64,000 bases of DNA, taken from NCBI GenBank assembly GCA_016742175.1, contig JACVCH010000008.1, forward strand, positions 160,742-224,741, written 5' to 3'. The notes beneath the pieces are model-generated. The model saw only the letters and a program-made list of their open reading frames with translations. It made no database searches and was not told the DNA's origin. Position 1 is the first letter of the stretch; every line of letters starts with the position of its first letter. The translations under genes and the position numbers were made by a program. The stretch is from Rhizobiaceae bacterium. GTDB taxonomy: Bacteria > Pseudomonadota > Alphaproteobacteria > Rhizobiales > Rhizobiaceae. Positions 20,052-52,212 of this stretch are shown here, piece after piece.

Positions 20052-20804
20052 ATGCCTGAGTTCTTCCACCGCAAGCTGGAGCGCTCCGCGATCGGCTTCG
20101 TCCTCGCCATCATCGCGGCGGCGAGCGTCGGCGGCATCGTCGAGATCGCGCCGCTCTTCACGATCGACGAGACGGTCGAGGAGGCGCCCGACATGCGGGT
20201 CTATACGCCGCTCGAACTTTCCGGCCGCAACATCTATGTCCGCGAGGGCTGCTATGCCTGCCACAGCCAGATGATCCGCACGCTGCGCGACGAGGTCGAG
20301 CGCTACGGGCCCTATTCTCTGGCCGTGGAGTCCCAATATGACCGCCCCATGCTGTGGGGCTCGAAGCGGACCGGGCCGGACCTGGCCCGCGTCGGCGGGA
20401 AATATTCCGACTTTTGGCACGTCGCCCATCTGATCAACCCGCGTGACGTCGTGCCCGAATCCAACATGCCTGCCTATGCGTTCCTGGCGCGCAACCGGCT
20501 GCGCACGGACGATCTTTCCGGCCATCTGCGCGCACAGCGGGCGCTGGGCGTTCCCTATACCGACGAGATGATCGAGAACGCAGGCCGCGACGCCTATGGC
20601 CAGGCCGCGCCCGACAGCGCGGCCGCGCCGGGCGTCACCGAGCGCTACGGCCCGGCAACGACGGTCAGCGCCTTCGACGGCGTGGCGACACAACTCACAG
20701 AGATGGATGCGCTGGTCGCCTATCTTCAGGTGCTCGGCCGCCTGACCGACGCCGCCTATCGCGACACGGCCGCGCCCGAAGAGGCGCCGGACCCGGCGGA
20801 GTAG
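20052..20804 (+). CDS. ccoO: cbb3-type cytochrome c oxidase monohaem subunit
   Basis: 250 aa. One N-terminal transmembrane anchor (about 12-35) then a periplasmic cytochrome c domain with the single CxxCH motif (EGCYACHSQM) and family landmarks SKRTGPDLARVGGKYSDFWH, INPRDVVPESNMPAY. Passes electrons from CcoP to CcoN. The C-terminus is longer than in some homologues, with an acidic, Ala/Pro-rich tail. Operon member. Confidence 0.95.
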   Translation: MPEFFHRKLERSAIGFVLAIIAAASVGGIVEIAPLFTIDETVEEAPDMRVYTPLELSGRNIYVREGCYACHSQMIRTLRDEVERYGPYSLAVESQYDRPMLWGSKRTGPDLARVGGKYSDFWHVAHLINPRDVVPESNMPAYAFLARNRLRTDDLSGHLRAQRALGVPYTDEMIENAGRDAYGQAAPDSAAAPGVTERYGPATTVSAFDGVATQLTEMDALVAYLQVLGRLTDAAYRDTAAPEEAPDPAE

Positions 20805-20810
20805 GCGGCC

Positions 20811-20984
20811 ATGTTCGATATCAGCCACGAGACGCTCGTCGCCTTTTCCAAGAGCTGGGGCCTGTTCTACCTGATGGGCTTCTTCCTCTGCGTCGTCGTC
20901 TACGCCTTCTGGCCGTCCAACCGAAAACGCTTTGACCGCGCCAAGACCAGCATCCTCGAGCGGGACGACAAGCCATGGCAGTGA
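20811..20984 (+). CDS. ccoQ: cbb3-type oxidase small subunit CcoQ
   Basis: 57 aa with one membrane helix (FYLMGFFLCVVVYAFWPSN) and a basic C-terminal tail (KRFDRAKTSILERDD), the CcoQ pattern. Stabilises the oxidase. Begins 6 nt after the ccoO stop and overlaps ccoP by 10 nt. Confidence 0.93.
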   Translation: MFDISHETLVAFSKSWGLFYLMGFFLCVVVYAFWPSNRKRFDRAKTSILERDDKPWQ

Positions 20985-21856
20985 ACGAACGCGACCCCGT
21001 CACAGGGCGGGAGACGACCGGCCACGAATGGAACGGCATCAAGGAGCTCGACACGCCCGTCCCGCGCGGCGTGCTGATGTTTCTGATCCTGACCCATATC
21101 TGGGCGATCGCCTGGTGGTTTTTCGTCCCTGCCTGGCCGATCGGCACGACCTACACTAAAGGCTTGCTCGGCGTCGACCAGCAGACGACCGTCGAGGCAC
21201 GCATCATCGAGGGCCAATCCGAGCGCGCGCCCTGGGCCGACCGCGTCGCCAGCGAACCCTATGACTCAATCCTCGCCGACGAAGGACTGATGCAGACGGT
21301 TCGCAGCGCCGGCGACCAGCTCTTCGGCGACAATTGCGCCGCCTGCCATGGACGCGATGCGCGTGGCAGGGCCGGCTATCCGGACCTGACCGATGACGAC
21401 TGGCTGTGGGGCGGCGAACCGGAGACGATCGAGCAGACGTTACGGCTCGGCATCAACGCCGCGCATCCGGAAAGTCGCATCGCGCAGATGCCTGCCTTCG
21501 GCCGTGATCAGATGCTCGAGCGCACCCAGGTCCGGGATGTCGCCGCCTATGTGTTTGCTCTCAGCAACCCGGACTATTCGACCGAGGAAACCATCGACCG
21601 GATCGAGGCCGGTCGCGAGGTCTTCGCCACGAGTTGCGCCGCCTGCCATGGCGACAATGCCGAGGGCATGGCCGAGATCGGTGCCCCCAACCTTGCCGAT
21701 GATCGCTGGGTCTATGGCGGCGACATGGAGACGATCATTGCGTCCGTCCACGGCGGTCGGCAGGGCCACATGCCGACCTGGGACGAGCGGATGACGGACG
21801 CCGAGATCCGCACACTGTCGCTCTACGTTCACGATCTGGCGGCGAGGCAGCCATGA
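20975..21856 (+). CDS. ccoP: cbb3-type cytochrome c oxidase dihaem subunit
   Basis: 293 aa. N-terminal cytoplasmic segment with HEWNGIKELDTPVPRG, one transmembrane helix (about 28-52), then two cytochrome c domains each with CAACH (about residues 121-125 and 220-224). Met axial-ligand candidates are in RIAQMPAFG and GHMPTW. It receives electrons from soluble cytochromes or cupredoxins. Overlaps ccoQ and, by 4 nt, the next small gene. Confidence 0.95.
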   Translation: MAVNERDPVTGRETTGHEWNGIKELDTPVPRGVLMFLILTHIWAIAWWFFVPAWPIGTTYTKGLLGVDQQTTVEARIIEGQSERAPWADRVASEPYDSILADEGLMQTVRSAGDQLFGDNCAACHGRDARGRAGYPDLTDDDWLWGGEPETIEQTLRLGINAAHPESRIAQMPAFGRDQMLERTQVRDVAAYVFALSNPDYSTEETIDRIEAGREVFATSCAACHGDNAEGMAEIGAPNLADDRWVYGGDMETIIASVHGGRQGHMPTWDERMTDAEIRTLSLYVHDLAARQP

Positions 21857-40789: not shown

Positions 40790-41911
40790 GTGGCGGACCG
40801 TTGTGATCGCTTGCCGCCGCCAGGTTCATACTCGAGGAGACCAGAGGCGGCCACGATAGGAACACATGTAGAAACACTGTCCGATGCGAGGCCGGTGGCG
40901 ACACGCGAAGTCGAAGTCACCGGCCGAAGCTTTGGGGGTATCAGGCCCAAACTCCAGGTCGTGCCGGGCGACACGGTCAGGCGGGGTGATGTACTCTTCG
41001 TTGATGCCAAGCGGCCCCGCATCGCATTCGTGTCGCCCTTTTCCGGAGTGGTCCGGTCGGTCGAGATCGGACGCCGTCGCCTGCTCGACCGCATCGTGAT
41101 CGATGCAGACGGCAATGCGGTCCGCAGTTTCGGACCATTGGCCTCCGATGCGCGATGTCGGGATCTCCGCGAGCTTATGCTTCAAAGCGGGCTGTGGACC
41201 CGCCTGCGCGTGCGTCCGTACGGCCGCATTCCCGATCCCGACGACGAGGTGTCGGCGATCTTCGTCACCGCTACGCGTGCCGATCCGCTCATGCCTGATC
41301 CGGCTTTAGCGATCGATCGGCAGCACCTCGCTTTCGCGAAGGGTCTCGCACTTCTGGCGATGCTGACGGACGGACCCGTTCACCTTTGCCACGAGACCGG
41401 CGTCGACGTGACGGCCTTCCGTTCCGATCGGGTTCGCACCAGCGCCTTCACCCTAGGCCGTCCAGGCGGCCTGCCCGGTTTTCACATTGCACGGTTTGCT
41501 GCTGTCAGCGAAGACCGGCCGGTGCTGCAGGTCGGTTATGCGGACGTCATCGATCTCGCCAAGCTCGCGCAGACCGGGCGACTGCCGGAAGTCACCGGGA
41601 GCGACGTCTTTTCGGGTCATGAGAAGGGTTCGGCCAGCGCATCCGCTCGCTTTGCGCGCTGGCTCAATGCGTCGACAGGCGGGGCGATCGTGCCGCGCGA
41701 GGCTTTGGATCGCGCCGTTCCGCCCGGCATTCTTGCCGTTCCGCTGATGCGCGCGCTCAGCATCGGCGACGTCGAAACGGTGCGCGCGCTGGGCGGGCTC
41801 GGCCTTGTCGAGGAGGACATGGCGGCGCTTACCCGCCTGTGCGCCAGTGGCGCCGATTACGGCATGCTCCTGCGTGCTGCGCTGGACACGCTTGAACGGG
41901 AGGCTCGCTGA
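40790..41911 (+). CDS. nqrA: Na+-translocating NADH:quinone reductase subunit A (shortened)
   Basis: 373 aa against about 447 in Vibrio. N-terminal barrel-like segment FGGIRPKLQVVPGDTVRRGDVLFVDAKRPRIAFVSPFSGVVRSV and LMLQSGLWTRLRVRPYGRIP, AIFVTATRADPL, and the C-terminal ADYGMLLRAALDTLEREAR match NqrA. About 60-70 residues of the central-to-C-terminal region are missing, apparently as an internal deletion. NqrA binds ubiquinone on the cytosolic face. GTG start at 40790 gives the family-like N-terminus. TGATG coupling to nqrB. Confidence 0.85.
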   Translation: MADRCDRLPPPGSYSRRPEAATIGTHVETLSDARPVATREVEVTGRSFGGIRPKLQVVPGDTVRRGDVLFVDAKRPRIAFVSPFSGVVRSVEIGRRRLLDRIVIDADGNAVRSFGPLASDARCRDLRELMLQSGLWTRLRVRPYGRIPDPDDEVSAIFVTATRADPLMPDPALAIDRQHLAFAKGLALLAMLTDGPVHLCHETGVDVTAFRSDRVRTSAFTLGRPGGLPGFHIARFAAVSEDRPVLQVGYADVIDLAKLAQTGRLPEVTGSDVFSGHEKGSASASARFARWLNASTGGAIVPREALDRAVPPGILAVPLMRALSIGDVETVRALGGLGLVEEDMAALTRLCASGADYGMLLRAALDTLEREAR

Positions 41912-42741
41912 TGGCGACGCTCACCGCCAGCGCAGCGATATCACGGGCCGCATCGTTGCCCGGCCTTGTCCAGACCCGTCCGGCGCTCCTGCTGCTCGTC
42001 GCGCTTGCGGCGCCCATGGTCGTCCTTTTCTTCGAGCGTGGAGGCCGGCTGGCCCTTGTCCTGGCAGTCGGCATCCTTGTCGCGGCGTTCTGGAGCGTGA
42101 TCTTCGCGTTCGCGCGCAAACGTGTCCTCGACGCGCATTTCCTCGTTGCGGGGGCCGTTTCCGCGGCGCTCCTGCCGGTCGATGTGCCACTCTGGCAACT
42201 GGCGATGTCGCTGAGTTTCGGAATGGTCGTCGGCGAACAGATTTTCGGGGGGCGCGGCTTTTCGTTCCTCAGCCCGGCTGTCGCCGCGCTCGCTTTCCAG
42301 TTCTTCTCCTTTCCTGCAACCTATGCACCGGCCGGGCCCGAGACCCTTGCTGCTCTCGTTCTTGTGCCAGGCATGCTCTTGCTTGTGGTGGCCGACCTCG
42401 TCTCGTGGCGCGTCCTTGTTGGATTCGCGGTCGGGTTCGGACTGTGGATGCTGCTGCATCAGTCTGGCTTGCCCGACGGCTCGATCTTCTCGGCAAGCCT
42501 CGCGCTTGGCCTGGTCTTCCTCGTCGCCGACCCGGCTCCGGGTCCGGCGACGAATTCCGGCCGCTACGTGCATGGCTTCTTGGCCGGGATGCTCGTCGTC
42601 GTCCTTGGTGCGGCGGCGGACGGGGCAGCGGCGGCGCGCACCGTCGTCTTTGCCGCCCTTCTCGCATCGATCTTCACCCCGCTTGCCGATCGCATCGCCG
42701 TTCTCGTCAACGTCAACCGAAGGAGACGCCGTCATGGCTGA
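41911..42741 (+). CDS. nqrB: Na+-translocating NADH:quinone reductase subunit B, short, without SGAT motif
   Basis: 276 aa against about 410 in Vibrio; about eight membrane helices. MVVGEQIFGGRGFSFLSPAVAALAFQFFSFPA and ATNSGRYVHGFLAGML, FAALLASIFTPLADRIAV match NqrB. Where Vibrio has VDGYSGATAL (the FMN-phosphothreonine site), this protein goes directly from FFSFPATYAPAGP to the next helix; no [S/T]GAT motif is present anywhere in it. It therefore probably lacks the covalent FMN that is central to Na+ coupling. Overlaps nqrC by 8 nt. Confidence 0.82.
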   Translation: MATLTASAAISRAASLPGLVQTRPALLLLVALAAPMVVLFFERGGRLALVLAVGILVAAFWSVIFAFARKRVLDAHFLVAGAVSAALLPVDVPLWQLAMSLSFGMVVGEQIFGGRGFSFLSPAVAALAFQFFSFPATYAPAGPETLAALVLVPGMLLLVVADLVSWRVLVGFAVGFGLWMLLHQSGLPDGSIFSASLALGLVFLVADPAPGPATNSGRYVHGFLAGMLVVVLGAAADGAAAARTVVFAALLASIFTPLADRIAVLVNVNRRRRRHG

Positions 42742-43537
42742 CTTCAATCCGGTGCGCCTGTGGCGCCGCTTCCTGGCCATGCCCAACGACACCAGCACCA
42801 AGACCTTTGCCGTGGCGTTCATGGTGGCGTCGGTCTCGGCGGTCGCCGTTGCGGTCACGGCGGTGACGCTGCGCCCGCTTCAGGCGGAGAACGTCGCTGC
42901 CGGCCAGGCCGAACGCATGCAGGAGATGCTGGCATCGGTACCGGGCCTTGCCGACCTCCTGGCCGATGCCGACGCTGATGCGATCGAGACGCGGCTGGTC
43001 GACCTCGACACCGGCGAATATGTCACAGGGGTGGACGCCGGCGCTCACGATGTCGACGCTGCAGCCAGCGACCAACAGGCCAGCACCGCCCTCCAGCCTG
43101 CCGACGATGTTGCGGGCATCGGCAATCGCCCAGACCGGATGCCGGTGCATCTCGTGATCGAGAACGGTGCCCCAGTGCTCGTCATAGTGCAGGGCTACGC
43201 GTCCGGCTACCAGTCGACCATTCGCGCCTATATCGCACTTGAGAGCGATCTGGAGACGATCGCCGCAATCTCGATCTACGACCAGGCGGAGACGCCCGGT
43301 CTGGGTACACGCATCGCCGAGCCGGACTGGCAGGAGCGCTGGGCCGGCAAGCGGGTCATCGATGAGGATGGCACGGTTCGCGTTTCGTTGGGCGAGGCCC
43401 CAACAGGCGATTTCGAGATCGACGGCGTCACCGGTGCCACCCGCTCGTCCATGGGCGTCGTGAATCTCGTCAACTTCTGGTTAGGAGACCACGGCTACGG
43501 ACCCTATCTGGCGCGATTGCGCGTCCAGATGCCATGA
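42734..43537 (+). CDS. nqrC: Na+-translocating NADH:quinone reductase subunit C
   Basis: 267 aa. One N-terminal transmembrane helix (about 24-46) and a periplasmic FMN-binding domain. The FMN-attachment motif is present as [15 protein letters not shown] followed by [12 protein letters not shown], as in the family. Other landmarks: [18 protein letters not shown]. Start ATG at 42734 overlaps nqrB by 8 nt; the stop overlaps nqrD by 4 nt. ApbE in the same operon would attach the FMN. Confidence 0.9.
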
Positions 43538-44199
43538 CGGCACAAGCCAATCTGCGCCATCTGGTTGCGCCGATCCTGGACGCCAATCCGATCACGCTCC
43601 AGATCCTCGGCATCTGCTCTGCGCTCGCCGTCACGACTTCACTTGCGACGTCTCTAACGATGAGCGTGGCGCTGACGGTCGTTCTGGCGTCTTCGAGCAC
43701 ACTGATCAGCCTGATCCGTAACCACGTCGCGTCCTCGATCCGGCTCATCGTGCAGATCACCATCATCGCCTCGCTGGTGATCGTCACCGACCAGATATTG
43801 AAGGCCTATGCCTATGAGATGAGCCAGCGGCTCTCGATATTCGTCGGACTGATCATCACCAATTGCGTCGTGCTCGGACGGGCGGAAGGCTTTGCCATGC
43901 GCAACCCGCCGTTGCCGAGCTTCTTGGATGGCCTGGGTAACGGCCTTGGTTACAGCCTGATCCTCATGATCGTCGGCTTCATCCGCGAACTGTTCGGCAC
44001 CGGCGCGCTTTTCGGCTGGCCGCTTCTAGCCACGGTGGCACAGGGCGGCTGGTTCCAGCCGCTCGGCCTCATGCTTCTGGCGCCAAGCGCCTTCTTCATC
44101 ATCGGCTTCCTGATCTGGACGATCCGAACCCTGAAGCCTGAGCAGGTCGAAGAACCCGAATTCCGGGTGCCGTCATCGGGCGCGAGGGCCGCGCCATGA
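43534..44199 (+). CDS. nqrD: Na+-translocating NADH:quinone reductase subunit D
   Basis: 221 aa, six membrane helices. Conserved cysteines that in Nqr ligate a membrane [2Fe-2S] cluster are kept: [11 protein letters not shown] (near 28) and [15 protein letters not shown] (near 110). Other landmarks: [39 protein letters not shown]. Overlaps nqrC and nqrE by 4 nt. Confidence 0.93.
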
Positions 44200-44798
44200 T
44201 CGATCTCTTTCAGCGTTCCATTTTCGAGCAGAACCTCGCGCTGGTCTATTTTCTCGGCATGTGCACCTTCCTCGCCATCTCGCGCAAGCTGGAGACCGCG
44301 ATCGGTCTCGGTCTGGCGCTGATCGTCGTCCAGGCGATCACTGTCCCAGCAAATCATCTGATCCAGGTCTGGCTTCTGAACGAGGGTGCCTGGGCTTGGG
44401 CAGGGTTGCCGGAGGTCGAACTGACCTTCCTGCGCTTCATCGTCTTCATCGGACTGATCGCGGCGGTGGTGCAAATCATCGAGATGGTGCTGGACCGACA
44501 TTTCCCGGCACTCCATGGCGCGCTGGGCATCTTTTTGCCTCTGCTGGCTGTCCAGTGCGTCATCCTCGGCGGCAGCCTCTTCATGGTGGAGCGCAGGTAC
44601 GACTTCGCCGAGAGCGTCGTCTACGGTCTGTCGGGCGGCATCGGCTGGGCGCTGGCGTTGGTCGCCTTCGCGGCAATCCGCGAGCGGCTCGCCTACGCCG
44701 ACATGCCCGCCGGGCTGCAAGGGCTGGGGTCCGCCTTCATCGTCACCGGATTGATGTCGATGGGCTTTTCGGCCTTTGTGGGGGTGCGGCTGCCATGA
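44196..44798 (+). CDS. nqrE: Na+-translocating NADH:quinone reductase subunit E
   Basis: 200 aa, six membrane helices, partner of NqrD. The two conserved cysteines are present: [18 protein letters not shown] and [60 protein letters not shown] is the family ending. Overlaps nqrD and nqrF by 4 nt. Confidence 0.94.
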
Positions 44799-46015
44799 AT
44801 GAGATCGTGCTCGGCAGCGTGCTGTTCACCGGCTTCGTGATGGTGCTGGCCTCGTTCGTCGTGGCGGCGCGCGCCGCGCTGCTGCCCGCAACCACAATCC
44901 GGATCACCGTCAACAGCAGCCGTGAGATCGCCGCGCGATCCGGGCGCAAGCTCCTGGAAATCCTCACCGACAATGCCATCCCCGTGCCGGCACCCTGTGG
45001 CGGCAAGGGCACGTGCGGCCAGTGCCGTGTCACCGTGACGGACGGCGCCGGTGCACCGCTGCCAACCGAAATCAACAAGCTGTCGCGGCGCGACCTGAAT
45101 GAAGGTACCCGGCTTTCATGCCAGATCACGGTCCGTAACGATCTTGCGGTCGGCGTCGCGGACGACGTGCTGGGTGCGCGGCGCCTGACCTGCCGCGTCG
45201 CATCGAGCCGGACGCTCTCGCCGCTCATCCGCGAACTCGTTCTGGAACTGCCTGAGGGAGAGACTTTCGAATACACGCCGGGCGCCTATGTCCAGGCAAC
45301 GGCGCCGGCTCATTCGATACACTTTGCCGATTGCAACGTCGAACCCGAGCACGAGGCGGTGTGGGAACGCCTCGGCCTGCGCGCCTTGACCTCGCAAAGC
45401 GCGATCCCCGTCGCGCGCGCCTATTCGATCGCCAACCGTCCGGCCGATGCTGGAACGATCGTCCTTCTGATCCGGTTGGCGCTGCCGCCCCCGGCGGTCC
45501 CCAATGCGCCGCCGGGAATCGTGTCGTCATATCTGTTTGGGCTGAAAGCGGGGGACGATCTGGACATCGCCGGCCCGTATGGCGATTTCCGCGCGCAGGC
45601 AACCGATCGCGAGATGGTCTTCATCGGCGGCGGCGTTGGAATGGCGCCTTTACGCGCCATCGTCTTCGATCAACTCGAACGAGCCAAGACGGACCGCGAG
45701 ATCAGCTTCTGGTATGGTGCGCGTAGCCTGGGCGACCTCTTCTATCGCGAAGAGTTCGAAGCGCTGGCCGCCGCCCACGGCAATTTCAGCTTTGTGCCGG
45801 CGCTTTCCGATCCGGGCAAGGGCGAGCGGTGGGACGGTGCCACCGGCTTCATCCACGACGTCGTCCTCGAGCACCATCTGCGCGATCATCGCGCGCCCGA
45901 AGCCTGCGAATTCTACCTGTGCGGTCCCCCGCTGATGATCGACGCCGTGATTGCCATGCTCGATGAGGCGGGAGTCGAGCCCGAATCCATCTTCTTCGAC
46001 GACTTTGGAGTGTGA
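44795..46015 (+). CDS. nqrF: Na+-translocating NADH:quinone reductase subunit F
   Basis: 406 aa. N-terminal membrane helix, a plant-type ferredoxin domain with four cysteines ([14 protein letters not shown] and LSCQI), an FAD domain with RAYSIANRP and an NADH domain with [13 protein letters not shown] and [16 protein letters not shown] oxidation site of the complex; faces the cytosol. Starts at ATG 44795 overlapping the nqrE stop; all redox motifs are intact. Confidence 0.95.
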
Positions 46016-46018
46016 CCC

Positions 46019-46981
46019 ATGATGATCGACAGACGCCGTTTCCTCCTCGCAACCGCGTCGCTGGCGGCCTTGCCCGTGCTTCCGGCATGGGCCGGCCGCA
46101 ACGTCCTGACACTCGAAGGTCCGGCCTTCGGAGCGTCTTGGCGGCTGGCGGCAGCGGGCATCCACGATGCGCGAGGGCTGCGCCGGCAGATCGGGACTGT
46201 GATCGCCGAAGTCGATGCGGCGATGTCGCCGTTCCGGCCCGACAGCGAACTGTCCCGATTCAACGGTGCCGCGACGACCGATTGGCTGCCAGTTTCGCCG
46301 GCGACGCAGGCCGTGGTCGCCGAGGCCTTGCGCGCCGCGCGCCTGACGGGCGATGCGTTCAACCCGACCGTGGGCCCGCTCGTCGGGCGCTACGGATTCG
46401 GCCCAATCCGCGAGGGTTACGCCGGACGATCCGACGAACTGGAATTGACAGAGGCCGGCATCCGAAAGGCGCGTGCCGAACTATCGCTCGATCTGTGCGG
46501 CATCGCCAAGGGCTACGCGCTCGACAGGCTGGCGGACACCTGCGCGGCATGGAACCTGACCGATTTCATGATCGAGCTGGGCGGCGAGGTTCTCGCCCGT
46601 GGCCAGCACCCGGGGGGCCGCGCCTGGCAAATCGGCGTCGAAGCGCCGACGGGCGAGGGCGGCTCGATCCGACATGTCGTCGCCGTCCAGGGGGCGGCGC
46701 TCGCGACGTCCGGCGACGCCGTCAATGGCTACATCCATCGCGGCCTGCGCTACAGCCACATCATAGAGCCCGGCGGCCGGCCGGCCGGCTCGGTGCTTGC
46801 CTCGGTGACGGTGGCCGCAGCGACAGCGATGACGGCGGATGCGCTGGCCACCGCGCTCTACGCAATGGGACCGCATGCCGGGCCCCGTTTTGCGGCCGAA
46901 AGCGGGATCGAGGCGCTGTTCTTGATGCATGACGGGGGCGAAGACGTGGTTGGCGGTTTCGAGGCCCGCCTGCTCGCATGA
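46019..46981 (+). CDS. apbE: FAD:protein FMN transferase ApbE
   Basis: 320 aa with a twin-arginine-like signal (DRRRFLLATASLAALPVLPAWA). Attaches FMN to Thr in [S/T]GAT motifs of NqrB/NqrC-type proteins in the periplasm. Landmarks: MSPFRPDSELSRFNGA, DLCGIAKGYALDRLAD, IELGGEVLARGQHPGGRAWQIGVEAP, TADALATALYAMG. Only NqrC carries a target motif here. Between nqrF and nqrM, overlapping the latter by 4 nt. Confidence 0.94.
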   Translation: MMIDRRRFLLATASLAALPVLPAWAGRNVLTLEGPAFGASWRLAAAGIHDARGLRRQIGTVIAEVDAAMSPFRPDSELSRFNGAATTDWLPVSPATQAVVAEALRAARLTGDAFNPTVGPLVGRYGFGPIREGYAGRSDELELTEAGIRKARAELSLDLCGIAKGYALDRLADTCAAWNLTDFMIELGGEVLARGQHPGGRAWQIGVEAPTGEGGSIRHVVAVQGAALATSGDAVNGYIHRGLRYSHIIEPGGRPAGSVLASVTVAAATAMTADALATALYAMGPHAGPRFAAESGIEALFLMHDGGEDVVGGFEARLLA

Positions 46982-47151
46982 GTGGCTGGGTGGCGACGAT
47001 CCTCCTGACGCTCGGCTTGTTTCTGTTGGGGATGTCGGGCCTTGCTGCTGGCGTCGCCTTTGGGCGTCGCCCCATTGCCGGATCGTGCGGCGGACTTGCC
47101 TGCGGGAAGCGCGAAGGTTGTGGGGTATGCGGCCGGGAAACGCCGCCATGA
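46978..47151 (+). CDS. nqrM: Nqr maturation protein NqrM (DUF539)
   Basis: 57 aa. One membrane helix then a cysteine-rich tail GSCGGLACGKREGCGVCG with four cysteines as in NqrM, which in Vibrio is needed to insert Fe into the NqrD-NqrE centre. The ATG overlaps apbE by 4 nt and the stop overlaps the CBS gene. Usual annotators would miss it because of its length. Confidence 0.88.
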   Translation: MSGWVATILLTLGLFLLGMSGLAAGVAFGRRPIAGSCGGLACGKREGCGVCGRETPP

Positions 47152-47543
47152 GGGGTCGGGTGACAATTGCCGACTACATGGCCAGAGGCCTGATCACACT
47201 GCCGCCGCAGATGGAGATCAACCGGGCGATGGTGGTTCTCGTCGACAGCCGTATTTCAGGCGCGCCGGTTCTCGGGCCATCCGGCGAACTTGTCGGCGTC
47301 CTGTCGAAGAAGGATTGCCTGCGCGCCGCACTCAACTCCAGTTACCATCGCGAATGGGGCGGCCTCGTAGCCGACTATATGACGCGCGAGGTCGAGACGC
47401 TCGATTCCGACCTGGAGCTCGTCCAGGCGGCCGAACGCTTCCTCGCGAGCCCTCATCGCCGCTTCCCCGTGATGAGCGACGGTCGTCTCGTCGGCCAGAT
47501 CAGCCGCGCGGACGTCCTGCGCGGACTGCTGGAAAACTGGTGA
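47148..47543 (+). CDS. CBS-domain protein
   Basis: 131 aa made of two CBS motifs (MRGRVTIADYMARGLITLPPQMEINRAMVVLVDSRISGAPVL and VADYMTREVETLDSDLELVQAAERFLASPHRRFPVM). CBS pairs bind adenosine nucleotides and could gate the Nqr complex by energy charge; inference. ATG 47148 overlaps the nqrM stop; an upstream in-frame opening lies in apbE/nqrM and is rejected. Confidence 0.87.
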   Translation: MRGRVTIADYMARGLITLPPQMEINRAMVVLVDSRISGAPVLGPSGELVGVLSKKDCLRAALNSSYHREWGGLVADYMTREVETLDSDLELVQAAERFLASPHRRFPVMSDGRLVGQISRADVLRGLLENW

Positions 47544-47565: not shown

Positions 47566-47625
47566 ATGTGGATGCTTGGCGTCTGCCTATTAACACTGGC
47601 CTTGGCTCAGCGTGATCAGCGATGA
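47566..47625 (+). CDS. Possible 19-aa leader peptide
   Basis: ATG 47566 with a strong AGAGGAG Shine-Dalgarno 6 nt upstream; a 19-residue hydrophobic peptide ending LAQRDQR. Its stop overlaps the start of the zinc-finger gene (ATGA at 47622), so it could act as a coupling leader. No conservation can be judged here. Confidence 0.3.
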   Translation: MWMLGVCLLTLALAQRDQR

Positions 47626-47873
47626 AACGGACTGGTGCTCGCAAGTTCAAGAACGACCACGGGGTGAGGGAAATCCGCATCGGCTTGAAGGAGTTCATGT
47701 GCGCCGGTGCTTCGCCTCCGCAGGATCACCCCCACATCTTTCTCGACATGGGTGATCTCGACCGCATCATCTGTCCTTACTGCGGCACCGCTTTTCGATT
47801 CGATCCTGACCTCGGGCCGCTGGAGTCGGATCCTGCGGATTCGTTCTTCGTCGATGAAACTGAGTTCGACTGA
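47622..47873 (+). CDS. Zinc-finger protein (zf-CHCC, NDUFS6-like)
   Basis: 83 aa. Zinc ligands Cys in FMCAGAS, His in DHPHIFLD and two Cys in IICPYCGTAF give the CHCC pattern of PF10276, the family of complex I subunit NDUFS6. Usually a free-standing small protein in alphaproteobacteria. Its place behind Nqr/CBS genes hints at respiratory-complex assembly; inference. Acidic C-terminus. Confidence 0.9.
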   Translation: MKRTGARKFKNDHGVREIRIGLKEFMCAGASPPQDHPHIFLDMGDLDRIICPYCGTAFRFDPDLGPLESDPADSFFVDETEFD

Positions 47874-47898: not shown

Positions 47899-48723
47899 CT
47901 ATTGTCGAGGAGGACGGCCGCCGATCGCATCCGTCAAGTGCTCGGCGGCCAGTTGCACGGCGCGACCCAGTTCCGCGTCTCGCGCTTTCTTGATGCGCGC
48001 AGCCGGACCGGATATGGACAGTCCGCCGATCGGCTCGCCGTGCTCGTTGAAGACCGCAGCGGCGATGCAGCGCATGCCGGCGGTATGTTCTCCGTCGTCG
48101 ACGGCCCACCCTCGCTCGCGTATGGCTCGAAGCTCGACGGCAAGCGCGCCAACGTCAGTCAAGGTTTGCGCTGTGAAGGCGGGCAGGCCGCGCTCTTGCA
48201 CCAGCGCCGCAAGACGATCATCCGACCAGTGGGCCATGATGGCCTTTCCGATGCCCGAAGCATGGATGGCGCTGCGGGTCCCGGCCTTGAAGAAGGCACG
48301 GATCGGCTGAGGTGTTTCAACCTGACTGACAAAGACGACCTCCCCATCATCGGCGATGGCGAGGTTTGCGGTTTCGCCCGTCGCGAGCATCAGTTCGCGA
48401 AGAGCCGGCCGCCCTCGCTCGATAAGGCTCGTCCGTCCAAGAAACGCCGAACCGATGCGGAACGCCTCTGCACCAATGAACCAAAGCTGTCTCACCGGAT
48501 CGACCTCGACGACACCGTGGGCTTCGAAGGTCGAGAGCACCCGGTAGACAGTGGCAGGCGCCTGCCCCGTTGAGTCCGACAGTTCGGTCAACGACAGTCC
48601 TTCCTGATCGGCCAGCGCCTTGAGGATGAGCATCGCTCGGTCGAGAGACTGGATCATCGTCTGCTCGGGATTGGGCGTGAAGGCACGCGGTCGTCCGCGA
48701 AGACGCTTATGCGATTCAGACAT
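47899..48723 (-). CDS. bhcR: IclR-family regulator, BhcR-like
   Basis: 274 aa. N-terminal IclR winged helix (LDRAMLILKALADQEGLSLTELSDSTGQAPATVYRVLSTFEAHGVVEV) and effector domain with GKAIMAHWSDD and GMRCIAAAVFNEHGEPIGGLSISGP. Divergent from bhcA across an AT-rich 141-bp promoter. In Paracoccus the homologue BhcR controls the beta-hydroxyaspartate cycle in response to glyoxylate. Confidence 0.9.
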   Translation of the reverse strand: MSESHKRLRGRPRAFTPNPEQTMIQSLDRAMLILKALADQEGLSLTELSDSTGQAPATVYRVLSTFEAHGVVEVDPVRQLWFIGAEAFRIGSAFLGRTSLIERGRPALRELMLATGETANLAIADDGEVVFVSQVETPQPIRAFFKAGTRSAIHASGIGKAIMAHWSDDRLAALVQERGLPAFTAQTLTDVGALAVELRAIRERGWAVDDGEHTAGMRCIAAAVFNEHGEPIGGLSISGPAARIKKARDAELGRAVQLAAEHLTDAIGGRPPRQ

Positions 48724-48798
48724 CTATCTCTCCCACCAAAAAAGGCCAATATCATGATTTTCAATCATAATTTCTTTACGGATAGAATTATGAAAAAC

Positions 48799-48810
48799 TT
48801 TTTCGAAAAA
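48799..48810. promoter_or_regulatory. Palindrome in bhcR/bhcA divergent promoter
   Basis: TTTTTCGAAAAA, 12-bp perfect palindrome, in the AT-rich intergenic region 48724-48864. Candidate BhcR operator (inference). Confidence 0.45.
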
Positions 48811-48864
48811 ATTGTGGCTACGGAATGTCTTTGCTAGAAAGGGCGGAAGGAGCGGAGGAGCGCC

Positions 48865-50055
48865 ATGTCCAGCCAGAACCCCGTTTTCATTCCAGGTCCA
48901 AGCAACATCCCGGAGCGGTTGCGGCGTGCGATCGATGTGCCGACCATCGATCACCGTTCCGATTCCTTCGCTGAACTCTTTCGCCCGCTTTTCGCGGGAG
49001 TGCGCAAAGTGATGAAGAGCAGCGACGCCGAGGTGATCTTCTTTCCCGCCACTGGCACCGCCGGTTGGGAGGCGGCGATCACGAACACGCTGTCACCCGG
49101 CGACCGGGTGCTCGCCGCGCGCCACGGCATGTTTTCGCAGCGCTGGATCGCCCTTTGCCGTCGCCATGGGCTCGATGTTCAGACGATCGAGGCACCTTGG
49201 GGTGCCGGTTGCCCGGTTGATGCCATGGGGGAGGCCCTGACGCGCGATGTCGGTCACAGGATAAAGGCGGTGCTGGTGACGCACAACGAGACCGCGACTG
49301 GCGTTCGTTCCGATGTCGCCGAGGTCCGCCACGCACTCGATGCGGCTCGCCATCCCGCACTCCTCTTTGTCGACGGCGTCTCCTCGATTGCCTCGATGGA
49401 CTTCCGTATGAACGAATGGGGGGTCGATCTGGCCGTGACCGGCAGCCAGAAGGGTTTCATGCTACCCGCCGGCCTCGCTATCCTCGGGGTCAGTCAAAAA
49501 GCGGTCGCGGCGATGGATACGGCGACGTGCCCGCGCTGCTATCTCGATCTGCGCGACATGCTGATGGCGAACGCCAAAGGCGGCTATCCCTACACGCCGC
49601 CGGTCAACCTTCTATACGGGCTCGGCACCTCGCTGGAGATGCTGGATGAGGAGGGTCTGGAGAACGTCTTTGCCCGCCATCAGCGTATTGCTGAGGGCGT
49701 ACGCCGCGCCGTTGCCGCCTGGGGGCTCGAACTCTGCGCTCGATCACCGGACCTCTATTCCGACACGGTCAGCGCCATCGTCGTGCCAGACGGTTTCGAT
49801 GGCACCAAGATCGTGACCCACGCCGCCGAAAAATACGGCACCGCTTTTGGGGTCGGCCTCGGCGAGGTGGCGGGCAAGGTTTTCCGCATTGGTCATCTCG
49901 GCTCGCTCACCGACGTCATGGCTCTTGCGGGATTGGCCTGCGCCGAAATGGCAATGGCGGATCTCGGCCTGCCCGTGCGTCTTGGAAGCGGCGTCGCTGC
50001 CGCGCAGGAGCACTTCAGCCGGACCGGGCCCAAAGCCCTATCGCAAGCTGCGTGA
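48865..50055 (+). CDS. bhcA: Aspartate-glyoxylate aminotransferase of the beta-hydroxyaspartate cycle
   Basis: 396 aa fold-type I PLP enzyme of the AGXT/serine-glyoxylate aminotransferase family. PLP lysine in AVTGSQKGFMLPAGLA; IPGPSNIPERLR at the N-terminus, FFPATGTAGWEAAI, FVDGVSSIASMDFRMNEWGVD. In the cycle it converts glyoxylate and aspartate to glycine and oxaloacetate. Assigned BhcA because it is followed by the dehydratase and aldolase and faces an IclR gene, the known cluster order. Confidence 0.9.
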   Translation: MSSQNPVFIPGPSNIPERLRRAIDVPTIDHRSDSFAELFRPLFAGVRKVMKSSDAEVIFFPATGTAGWEAAITNTLSPGDRVLAARHGMFSQRWIALCRRHGLDVQTIEAPWGAGCPVDAMGEALTRDVGHRIKAVLVTHNETATGVRSDVAEVRHALDAARHPALLFVDGVSSIASMDFRMNEWGVDLAVTGSQKGFMLPAGLAILGVSQKAVAAMDTATCPRCYLDLRDMLMANAKGGYPYTPPVNLLYGLGTSLEMLDEEGLENVFARHQRIAEGVRRAVAAWGLELCARSPDLYSDTVSAIVVPDGFDGTKIVTHAAEKYGTAFGVGLGEVAGKVFRIGHLGSLTDVMALAGLACAEMAMADLGLPVRLGSGVAAAQEHFSRTGPKALSQAA

Positions 50056-50062
50056 GGAGATC

Positions 50063-51037
50063 ATGGACACGCCGACCGACACTGGCTTCGACCTTCCAAG
50101 CTGGGACGATGTCAAGGCCGCACACGAACGGATTGGACAGCACATCCGACGTACTCCGGTTCTGACGTCGAAGTATCTGAACGGAATTGCCGGAGCCGAA
50201 CTCTTTTTCAAATGCGAGAACTTCCAGAAGGCTGGCGCCTTCAAGGTGCGCGGCGCCTGCAACGCCGTCTTCGGCCTGTCCGACGCGGTGGCCGCGAAAG
50301 GCGTTGCAACCCATTCCTCCGGCAACCATGCGCTTTCGCTAAGCTATGCTGCGGGTCGCCGTGGCATAACCTGTCATGTCGTCATGCCGCACACCGCACC
50401 GCAGGCGAAAAAGGATGCGGTCATCGGCTACGGAGGCACGATCACCGAATGTGAGCCGTCCACTGCCAGCCGCGAGCACGTCTTCGCCCGCGTACAGGCC
50501 GAAACCGGCGCTGAATTCGTGCACCCCTATAACGATGCGCGGGTAATTGCCGGGCAGGGGACCTGCGCCAAGGAACTGCTTGAGGAGCTGCCCGATCTCG
50601 ACGTCATCGTCGCCCCAATCGGCGGGGGCGGAATGATTTCGGGCACCTGTGTCACTTGCGGAACCTTGGCGCCAGAGCTGCAAATCTACGCTGCCGAACC
50701 CGAGACCGCTGACGATGCGTACCAATCGTTCCGGAAGGGAGAGATCGTCGCTTACGACGCGCCCGTGACCATCGCGGATGGCCTAAAGGTTCCGCTCAAG
50801 GAGCTTACCTGGCATTTCGTCCGGACCGGCGTCACCGAAGTGTTGCTGGCCTCGGAGAGGGAGATCGTCGATGCCATGCGCCTGATCTGGGCGCGCATGA
50901 AGATTGTGATCGAGCCTTCCTGCGCCGTGCCGCTCGCCACCATCCTGAAAAACCGTGAGCTGTTCGAGGGCAAACGCGTCGGCGTGATCATCACAGGCGG
51001 CAATGTCGATCTCGACCAGCTCCCCTGGCTCAAGTGA
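50063..51037 (+). CDS. bhcB: beta-Hydroxyaspartate dehydratase (threonine dehydratase-like)
   Basis: 324 aa fold-type II PLP enzyme. PLP lysine in FFKCENFQKAGAFKVRGACN; HSSGNHALSLSYAA; glycine-rich phosphate loop IGGGGMISG; ITGGNVDLDQLPWLK at the end. In the cycle it turns erythro-beta-hydroxyaspartate into iminosuccinate. Start at 50063 follows GAGGAGATC; the frame opens further up within bhcA. Confidence 0.9.
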   Translation: MDTPTDTGFDLPSWDDVKAAHERIGQHIRRTPVLTSKYLNGIAGAELFFKCENFQKAGAFKVRGACNAVFGLSDAVAAKGVATHSSGNHALSLSYAAGRRGITCHVVMPHTAPQAKKDAVIGYGGTITECEPSTASREHVFARVQAETGAEFVHPYNDARVIAGQGTCAKELLEELPDLDVIVAPIGGGGMISGTCVTCGTLAPELQIYAAEPETADDAYQSFRKGEIVAYDAPVTIADGLKVPLKELTWHFVRTGVTEVLLASEREIVDAMRLIWARMKIVIEPSCAVPLATILKNRELFEGKRVGVIITGGNVDLDQLPWLK

Positions 51038-51048
51038 GGGAAAACACC

Positions 51049-52212
51049 ATGAATCGCCCGATGCAAAGTGTCGATCTGGAAGTCGGCTATGATGTTCCCG
51101 CTGCAATCGGCATGAGCGAGAGCGAGATCCAGACGCCCTGCCTGATCCTCGATCTCGACGCGCTTGAACGCAACATAGAGAAGATGGGACGCCGTGCCAG
51201 AGAGATGGGCGTGAGGCATCGCGTACACGGCAAGATGCACAAATCCGTCGACGTGGCGAAGCTCCAGGAGCGGCTCGGTGGTTCGGTTGGCATCTGCTGC
51301 CAGAAAGTTTCCGAGGCCGAGGTATTTGTGCGCGGCGGCATCAAGGATGTGCTCGTTTCAAACCAAGTGCGCGACCCCGCAAAAATCGAACGGCTGGCCC
51401 GCCTTCCCAAGCTCGGTGCGCGCACGATCGTGTGCGTCGATGATGTGGCGAATGTCGCCGAGCTATCCGCCGCAGCCCAGCGGCAGGGCACGACTATCGA
51501 GTGTCTTGTGGAAATCGACTGCGGCGCGGGTCGCTGCGGTGTGACCTCAACGGCTGCCGTGCTTGAAATCGCCAAGGCCGTCGACGCCGCGCCGAGCCTG
51601 ACATTCGGCGGTATCCAGGCGTATCAAGGCGCGATGCAGCACCTTGAGTGCTACGAGGACCGCAAGGCCAAGATCGACATTGCCGTCGCGATGGTTGGCG
51701 AGGCGGTCGACGCGCTGAAGGCCGAGGGACTTTCTTGCGCCATCGTCGGCGGCGGCGGCACCGGGTCCTACTGTTTCGAGGGCAGATCCGGCGTCTACAA
51801 CGAACTGCAATGCGGCTCCTACGCCTTCATGGACGCCGACTACGGCCGCATTCTCGATGAGCACGGGGCCCGCATCGATCAGAGCGAATGGGAGAACGCG
51901 CTCTACATTCTGACCTCCGTGATGAGCCACGCCAAACCCGACAAGGCGATCTGCGACGCCGGGCTCAAGGCGCAGTCGGTGGATTCCGGCCTTCCGGTCG
52001 TCTACGGCCGGACGGACGTGAAATACGTGAAATGCTCCGACGAGCATGGCGTCATCGACGATCCGGCGGGCGTGCTCAGGGTCAACGACAAGCTGCGTCT
52101 CGTGCCCGGCCATTGCGACCCGACGTGCAATGTCCATGACTGGTATGTCGGCGTCAGAGCCGGCAAGGTTGAAGCGCTCTGGCCGATCTCGGCCCGCGGA
52201 AAGGCTTATTGA
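51049..52212 (+). CDS. bhcC: beta-Hydroxyaspartate aldolase (D-threonine aldolase-like)
   Basis: 387 aa from MNRPMQSVDLEVGYDVP (an opening at 51034 overlaps bhcB). Fold-type III PLP enzyme: CLILDLDALERNI, lysine region RHRVHGKMHKSVDVAK, SNQVRD, DCGAGRCGV, GIQAYQGAMQH and metal-site GHCDPTCN. Condenses glyoxylate with glycine to beta-hydroxyaspartate. Its stop overlaps an ATG at 52212 that should begin bhcD, but the gene is cut there. Confidence 0.9.
   Translation: MNRPMQSVDLEVGYDVPAAIGMSESEIQTPCLILDLDALERNIEKMGRRAREMGVRHRVHGKMHKSVDVAKLQERLGGSVGICCQKVSEAEVFVRGGIKDVLVSNQVRDPAKIERLARLPKLGARTIVCVDDVANVAELSAAAQRQGTTIECLVEIDCGAGRCGVTSTAAVLEIAKAVDAAPSLTFGGIQAYQGAMQHLECYEDRKAKIDIAVAMVGEAVDALKAEGLSCAIVGGGGTGSYCFEGRSGVYNELQCGSYAFMDADYGRILDEHGARIDQSEWENALYILTSVMSHAKPDKAICDAGLKAQSVDSGLPVVYGRTDVKYVKCSDEHGVIDDPAGVLRVNDKLRLVPGHCDPTCNVHDWYVGVRAGKVEALWPISARGKAY

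Follow-up and report, generated by a model that had tools for sequence, protein, structure and literature searches.

The 64,000-nucleotide stretch of DNA from a Rhizobiaceae bacterium analysed here, which we call the window, contains an nqr operon whose NqrB lacks the loop that carries the covalently bound FMN, and by sequence comparison this operon is a member of a distinct clade of Nqr with a short NqrB. What is new here is the association of short-type Nqr with multi-haem cytochromes, which is visible in the relatives and not in the window. By analogy with the Rnf-MmcA system of Methanosarcina, we propose that this Nqr variant lets electrons exit at the periplasmic FMN of NqrC, a reading to which we give a slightly better than even chance (roughly 50%).

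The nqr operon of the window

A single plus-strand operon, nqrABCDEF-apbE-nqrM, occupies positions 40790-47151, and all eight genes that a sequence-only reading of this DNA had named are found in it. The first, nqrA (40790-41911), encodes 373 residues when read from the first GTG, with an alternative start at 40895 according to codon usage. NqrA too is reduced: its N-terminal and second domains are present; the NQRA_SLBB domain was not found by a Pfam scan of the window protein and is present in nine of nine short-type relatives scanned, and the NCBIfam nqrA score is 195.8 bits against a cut-off of 321. The nqrB gene (41911-42741, 276 residues) encodes a protein that lacks both the FMN-attachment loop and some 80 residues found at the N terminus of Vibrio NqrB. 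NqrC (42734-43537, 267 residues) has an FMN_bind domain with a TGAT motif and exceeds the cut-off of NCBIfam TIGR01938. The NCBIfam cut-offs are likewise exceeded by NqrD (43534-44199, 221 residues) and NqrE (44196-44798, 200 residues), each with both cluster cysteines, and by NqrF (44795-46015, 406 residues), which combines Fer2, FAD_binding_6 and NAD_binding_1 domains and has its 2Fe-2S cysteines. The cofactor motifs that had been read from the letters in NqrC, NqrD/E and NqrF are thus all in place. Two maturation-type genes follow, the apbE flavin transferase (46019-46981, 320 residues) and an nqrM-like gene (46978-47151) for 57 residues with a cysteine-rich C terminus, which lies slightly below the Pfam NqrM cut-off (21.2 versus 22 bits). 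A two-CBS-domain protein of 131 residues (47148-47543, plus strand) overlaps the nqrM stop.

Several other features of the surroundings may be recorded. Downstream of the operon, at 47622-47873, lies a gene for a small zf-CHCC zinc-finger protein (PF10276), which we take to be of the type of a complex I accessory subunit. At 47899-52212 an IclR-type regulator diverges from genes for a class V aminotransferase, a PALP-family enzyme and an Ala_racemase_N/D-ser_dehydrat protein, presumably most of a beta-hydroxyaspartate cycle cluster. Finally, a FixO-type cbb3 oxidase subunit at 20052-21853 is followed by an open reading frame with two CXXCH motifs, as part of an oxidase cluster.

NqrB lacks the FMN-attachment loop

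A phmmer alignment of the window NqrB with the solved V. cholerae NqrB places query residues 51-138 on residues 133-220 without a gap and query residues 140-276 on residues 269-413. This break, from 220 to 269, shows that Vibrio residues 221-268 are missing, a stretch of 48 residues that carries the FMN-bearing threonine (T236). Pfam PF03116 matches the protein in two stretches and is its sole Pfam match, with no PF00175 fusion, and the NCBIfam nqrB model (TIGR01937) gives 110.7 bits, far under its cut-off of 349.9. An NqrB of about 276 residues without the SGAT loop, as the sequence-only reading described it, is therefore what the window encodes. Alignment with Vibrio NqrB and with the relatives extends the result, as the loop is missing in 81 of 81 short NqrB (the window and the best 80 of 180 relatives).

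Could the FMN be attached elsewhere, or the loop be hidden? No GA[TS] word and no substitute FMN site was found anywhere in the window NqrB. A looser word, x-GAT or x-GST, occurs in the NqrB of 10 of the best 80 of 180 relatives (L054, L063, L070, L085, L090-L093, L095 and L096); seven of these were located, with L090 standing for L091-L093, and they fall at scattered places, none of them in the loop. Only L095 (SGAT) and L096 (TGAT) fit the pattern [ST]GA[TS], at different places. A frameshift or sequencing error was rejected in view of the open frame and the recurrence of the deletion in 80 other loci. In the genome of the window, which is 96.1% complete, no second nqrB and no other NqrB or RnfD was found; its two PF03116 matches are the two halves of the window nqrB.

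A confident AlphaFold2 model built from 53 sequences (mean pLDDT 90.5, pTM 0.88) shows a complete NqrB fold minus the loop. Its best PDB matches are the NqrB chains of Nqr, among them the V. cholerae NqrB-T236Y entry, with RnfD chains next and transporters of the Rh, urea and ammonium types after these. Two of four short NqrB scanned, L031 and L033, are matched in one stretch by the NCBIfam model rnfD_Methano (285 positions), which we regard as a lead only.

A clade of short-NqrB operons

We call a gene "short" if the short NqrB is covered by one contiguous match. A genome scan found 180 relatives, of which the best 80 were kept and examined. Short-type matches occur in 6 of 101 related genomes, the window's included (12 with any match), in 17 of 397 genomes of the order (59 with a match), and in 5 of 398 genomes of the phylum (215 with a match), all five from the same class; the three samples overlap. 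Among the candidates scored, each of 24 different short-type genomes has a single NqrB/RnfD match at E 0.001. The best 80 of the 180 come mostly from Rhodobacteraceae (or Paracoccaceae) and from genera of Hyphomicrobiales, with single records labelled Rubrivivax, Burkholderiaceae, Alloalcanivorax and Deltaproteobacteria. In all 80 of these loci the short NqrB adjoins at least one other nqr gene, and in 73 of them nqrA to nqrF are all recognised, some contigs ending inside the operon; 67 of these 73 also have apbE, and 53 of the 67 have both apbE and nqrM. The record L077, from a metagenome-assembled genome (MAG) labelled Deltaproteobacteria, has NqrA and a short NqrB fused in a single frame of 778 residues (L077:8369-10702).

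In the long-type control loci an [SA]GAT motif is present in 24 of 24, 19 of which were found by the first pattern and five subsequently. The tree of NqrD, NqrE and NqrF leaves out NqrB; all three subunits were available for 99 of 105 candidate rows, and 86 rows were left after dropping those at least 92% identical. On this tree 64 short rows and 22 long rows are split on one branch with an SH-aLRT support of 100. There the window is placed together with Nitratireductor alexandrii (L031) and L032, a Rhizobiaceae MAG, its NqrDEF being up to 72% identical to that of L032. The earlier suggestion of an Nqr subtype is supported: an NqrB without the loop is the mark of an entire clade among Nqr operons.

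Multi-haem cytochrome genes often adjoin short-type operons

An open reading frame with at least four CXXCH motifs is found in 58 of the 80 short-type loci (the best 80 of 180) and in none of the 24 long-type loci, for which the stretches searched were 20 of 20 kb, three of 14 kb and one of 9.5 kb. When all frames of the 80 short loci are counted, a five-haem protein is encoded in 50, a four-haem protein in six, a six-haem protein in two and a three-haem protein in one. The sequence upstream of nqrA reaches 2.5 kb or more in 69 short loci, of which 52 have a frame with at least four motifs and 17 have none with that many; one of the 17, L060, retains a fragment of the pentahaem family with one motif. 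A further 23 short loci include 20 with at least four haem motifs, but 14 of the 23 repeat one of the 80, and among the nine that do not, seven have a five-haem frame.

Clustering of the neighbours puts one protein family in 45 of the 80 short loci, with five CXXCH motifs in 44 and the L060 fragment as the remaining one, and in 43 of the 45 the gene is upstream of the nqr operon and points away from it. In 37 aligned members the five CXXCH motifs are invariant. The family has no good solved relative by sequence in the PDB (one match, E 0.78), and a fold search gives a weak resemblance to OcwA (E 0.036, TM 0.42). The four- or six-haem type occurs at eight loci; five of these cytochromes were scanned and all are PF14537 proteins, that of L032 being a sequence relative of solved flavocytochrome c fumarate reductases and small tetrahaem cytochromes. 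A state was assigned to 60 of the 64 short rows of the NqrDEF tree; on it there are at least six switches between the five-haem and the four/six-haem kinds and at least nine between presence and absence, which speaks for a repeated recruitment of cytochromes. The short and long types are separated by a single split on the tree, so that the cytochrome contrast between them statistically amounts to one event. The link itself is clear by counts of genes; the mechanism behind it is putative.

In one locus the link is a gene fusion. L081, a Bauldia MAG, has a frame of 477 residues in which NqrC is joined to a tetrahaem domain (L081:10510-11940; FMN_bind 239-332, Cytochrom_c3_2 390-471), with nqrDEF-apbE-nqrM on the opposite strand. 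Such a fusion was found in this one MAG only among the 28 genomes of its family, the other 27 having none, and it can be taken as indirect support for a transfer from NqrC to cytochrome.

The window itself has no open reading frame with three or more CXXCH motifs in its 64 kb. Its genome has complex I type genes, with PF01512 matched at two places. At 96.1% completeness, under which absence is no proof, neither a PF14537 protein nor a credible homologue of the pentahaem protein was found in this genome. Two weak matches to the latter (E 0.003 and 0.006) were set aside: L142 appears by eye to be a sulfate-binding transporter protein, and the frame of L141 has stops.

Other neighbours of the short-type operons were also compared. 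Of the best 80 of 180 short loci, 72 have a homologue of the CBS protein, which is not specific to the short type because 9 of the 24 long loci have one too. In 7 of the same 80 loci there is a protein with a weak likeness to nitroreductases, the start of which looks twin-arginine-like by eye. The subgroup L071, L090-L093, L104 and L109 has a nitroreductase-like gene nearby and an NqrC with SGAS instead of SGAT; the gene order in L071, L090 and L109 is CBS, nitroreductase-like, exchanger-like.

Residues kept and lost along the electron and ion paths

The cysteines that hold the clusters are kept throughout, in NqrD and NqrE in 78 of 78 each, window included, and in NqrF in 77 of 77, and the attachment residue of NqrC is Thr in 68 of 79 and Ser in 11. 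The available text of PMC11889175 describes RnfE R67 and E115 and RnfA E88 as gate residues in the Rnf of Acetobacterium. By our alignment these correspond to NqrD R70, NqrD E118 and NqrE E96, kept in 78 of 78, 78 of 78 and 77 of 77.

For NqrB we used the quinone and Na+ sites of the Vibrio protein as given in the accessible parts of PMC10643135 and PMC4014512. The quinone-site glycines are present in 1 of 81 short NqrB at G140 and in 5 of 81 at G141, and the ubiquinone site (GG140-141 and the N-terminal region) is missing in the window. None of the 81 has Glu at E157. The alignment is uncertain at D52, where 7 of the 81 sequences have Asp and 2 have Glu. Behind the loop, at the site of a conserved Glu (position 273 or 274), Glu is retained by 3 of 81, and the window has a Glu one column before this site. 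As judged from the alignment, few of the residues proposed for quinone and for the Na+ path in the Vibrio protein survive in the short type. The riboflavin contacts are partly conserved: G198 is kept in 81 of 81, D346 in 80 (the position is Glu in the four long sequences of the alignment) and F342 in 74, with partial conservation at T162 (60), N203 (36) and N200 (31); at F338, which has been proposed as a gate residue, 62 of 81 have Phe. The window keeps D346, G198 and F342, and its T162, N200, N203 and F338 positions are occupied by Ala, Ser, Ser and Leu, replacements that make it a more eroded member of the clade. A link between erosion of the riboflavin site and the presence of a cytochrome was rejected: Gly at N200 is commoner in pentahaem loci, but this is a weak trend in counts not corrected for kinship.

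A different coupling mode, as suggested from the sequence, may exist: the loss of acidic residues from NqrB together with an intact NqrD/E gate fits such a mode and does not show it.

Discussion

How might electrons travel through an Nqr of this kind? Going by the conserved motifs, they would pass from NADH to the FAD and 2Fe-2S cluster of NqrF, then to the 2Fe-2S cluster of NqrD/E and on to the FMN bound covalently to NqrC on the periplasmic side. The canonical next carrier after NqrC is the covalent FMN of NqrB. With the loop deleted, as the sequence shows, FMN cannot be attached to NqrB covalently in the usual way; the reduced electron path proposed from the sequence is borne out to this extent, the motifs for the way from NADH to the periplasm being kept and the NqrB loop gone. 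In most members of the clade electrons would then go from NqrC to the periplasmic multi-haem cytochrome c that adjoins the operon, an acceptor suggested by the gene linkage and by the one NqrC-tetrahaem fusion, and the cytochrome would in turn feed a periplasmic reductase or the quinone pool. NqrB would be kept as a scaffold, perhaps with a non-covalent flavin, and if ions are pumped, NqrD/E would be the likelier site. A stronger version of this proposal, which we advance tentatively and consider to have clearly less than an even chance, would make the short clade a bacterial NADH:cytochrome c oxidoreductase in which NqrD/E pumps, NqrC feeds cytochromes and NqrB is on neither the redox nor the ion path.

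Because the riboflavin-site residues survive widely, NqrB may nevertheless still carry electrons. The FMN of NqrC could dock in the space of the loop and reduce the riboflavin of NqrB, which would pass electrons to quinone with the cytochrome as a side branch, and the complex would then stay an NADH:quinone oxidoreductase with one flavin fewer. We think this conceivable though rather unlikely. The kept D346 favours it, as do the conserved G198, F342 and T162 and the predicted fold, with its high pLDDT and its PDB matches to NqrB and then RnfD chains, and the available text of PMC11334425 proposes that an extracytosolic flavin samples a membrane flavin site in a two-subunit complex without the threonine. 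However, N200 and N203 are kept in less than half of the short NqrB, the window has lost both as well as T162, and the quinone-site glycines and N-terminal region of Vibrio are missing, while the cytochrome linkage and the fusion are left without explanation. The erosion of these other riboflavin residues and the linkage favour export through NqrC, and the two routes may both hold at once.

The association with cytochromes is silent on direction, and the complex might also be used in reverse, the cytochrome feeding periplasmic electrons into NqrC and an ion gradient driving them to NAD+. A homologue of PF00999 antiporters, found in 19 of the best 80 of 180 short loci and in 0 of 24 long loci and lying on the same strand within 100 bases of the pentahaem gene in 12 loci, would suit such a use. 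Yet the neighbour families listed hold no consistently linked donor enzyme; near L105 there is instead a FAD_binding_2 flavoprotein, whose nearest NCBIfam models, TcuA and flavocytochrome c, both stay under their cut-offs, and we consider reverse use improbable. Scarcely credible, in our estimate, is that the window merely shows an operon decaying in one genome, without general meaning. Its NqrA without a recognised SLBB domain, its eroded riboflavin residues, the lack of a linked cytochrome, a longer end branch (0.37 versus a median of 0.22) and the absence of a match in four of four same-genus genomes searched would agree with decay, but all frames are open, NqrDEF shares up to 72% identity with L032, and the loop is absent from 80 other loci.

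Export through NqrC can be set against three known systems. With the Na+-NQR of the V. cholerae type the short-type complex shares six homologous subunits and their order, together with apbE and nqrM, the NqrB fold, the FMN motif of NqrC and the cluster cysteines of NqrD/E and NqrF. It differs from Na+-NQR in having no FMN loop or attachment residue in an NqrB that is ~80 residues shorter at the N terminus, in the mostly unconserved quinone-site glycines and Na+-path acids, in its separate NqrDEF branch, in the cytochrome linkage and in the placement of apbE and nqrM. In a first comparison these two genes came downstream of nqrF and in its orientation in five other short-type loci, and upstream in the opposite orientation in four long-type loci. 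The likeness to Rnf with MmcA of Methanosarcina acetivorans lies in an outer-face FMN subunit linked to a multi-haem cytochrome c, the link here being drawn from genes. According to the available text of PMC4023990 and PMC11024163, the M. acetivorans cytochrome is cotranscribed with rnf, RnfG is proposed as its donor, and it reduces a methanophenazine analogue and outside acceptors; PMC4023990 also describes a potential flavin motif, SGTF, in RnfD, and PMC11024163 presents MmcA as a heptahaem relative of the OTR family that is absent from bacteria using Rnf between ferredoxin and NAD. In contrast to the operon studied here, with its NqrA and NqrF types and without an RnfB polyferredoxin or an RnfC with Fe-S, the archaeal complex is an Rnf with RnfB and RnfC, a ferredoxin donor and methanophenazine, and the pentahaem protein, whose best fold match is the weak one to OcwA, may be unrelated to MmcA. 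Two-subunit Nqr/Rnf-like complexes, as described in the accessible parts of PMC8238504 and PMC11334425, which propose an outward electron route for them, similarly combine an extracytosolic FMN protein with an NqrB/RnfD-type membrane part from which the flavinylation threonine is missing. Theirs, however, is an NAD-binding domain fused to the NqrB-like part, whereas here there are six subunits, with NqrD/E and a separate NqrF. In a literature search of titles and the beginnings of abstracts, with most subscription papers outside its scope, we found no report of a six-subunit Nqr with an FMN-less NqrB, nor any of an Nqr linked to pentahaem cytochromes.

The route of Na+ in Nqr and Rnf is disputed, the available text of PMC10643135 placing it in NqrB/RnfD and that of PMC11889175 in RnfA-E, the counterpart of NqrD-E. 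A natural complex with an intact NqrD/E and an NqrB minus its FMN and most of the path acids can help decide between these models. If the reading as an NADH:cytochrome c oxidoreductase is true, the short clade would be a bacterial, Nqr-derived counterpart of the archaeal Rnf-MmcA system and a natural experiment on which subunit pumps. And if the cytochrome link is right, many alphaproteobacteria would have an unrecognised route from NADH to periplasmic haem.
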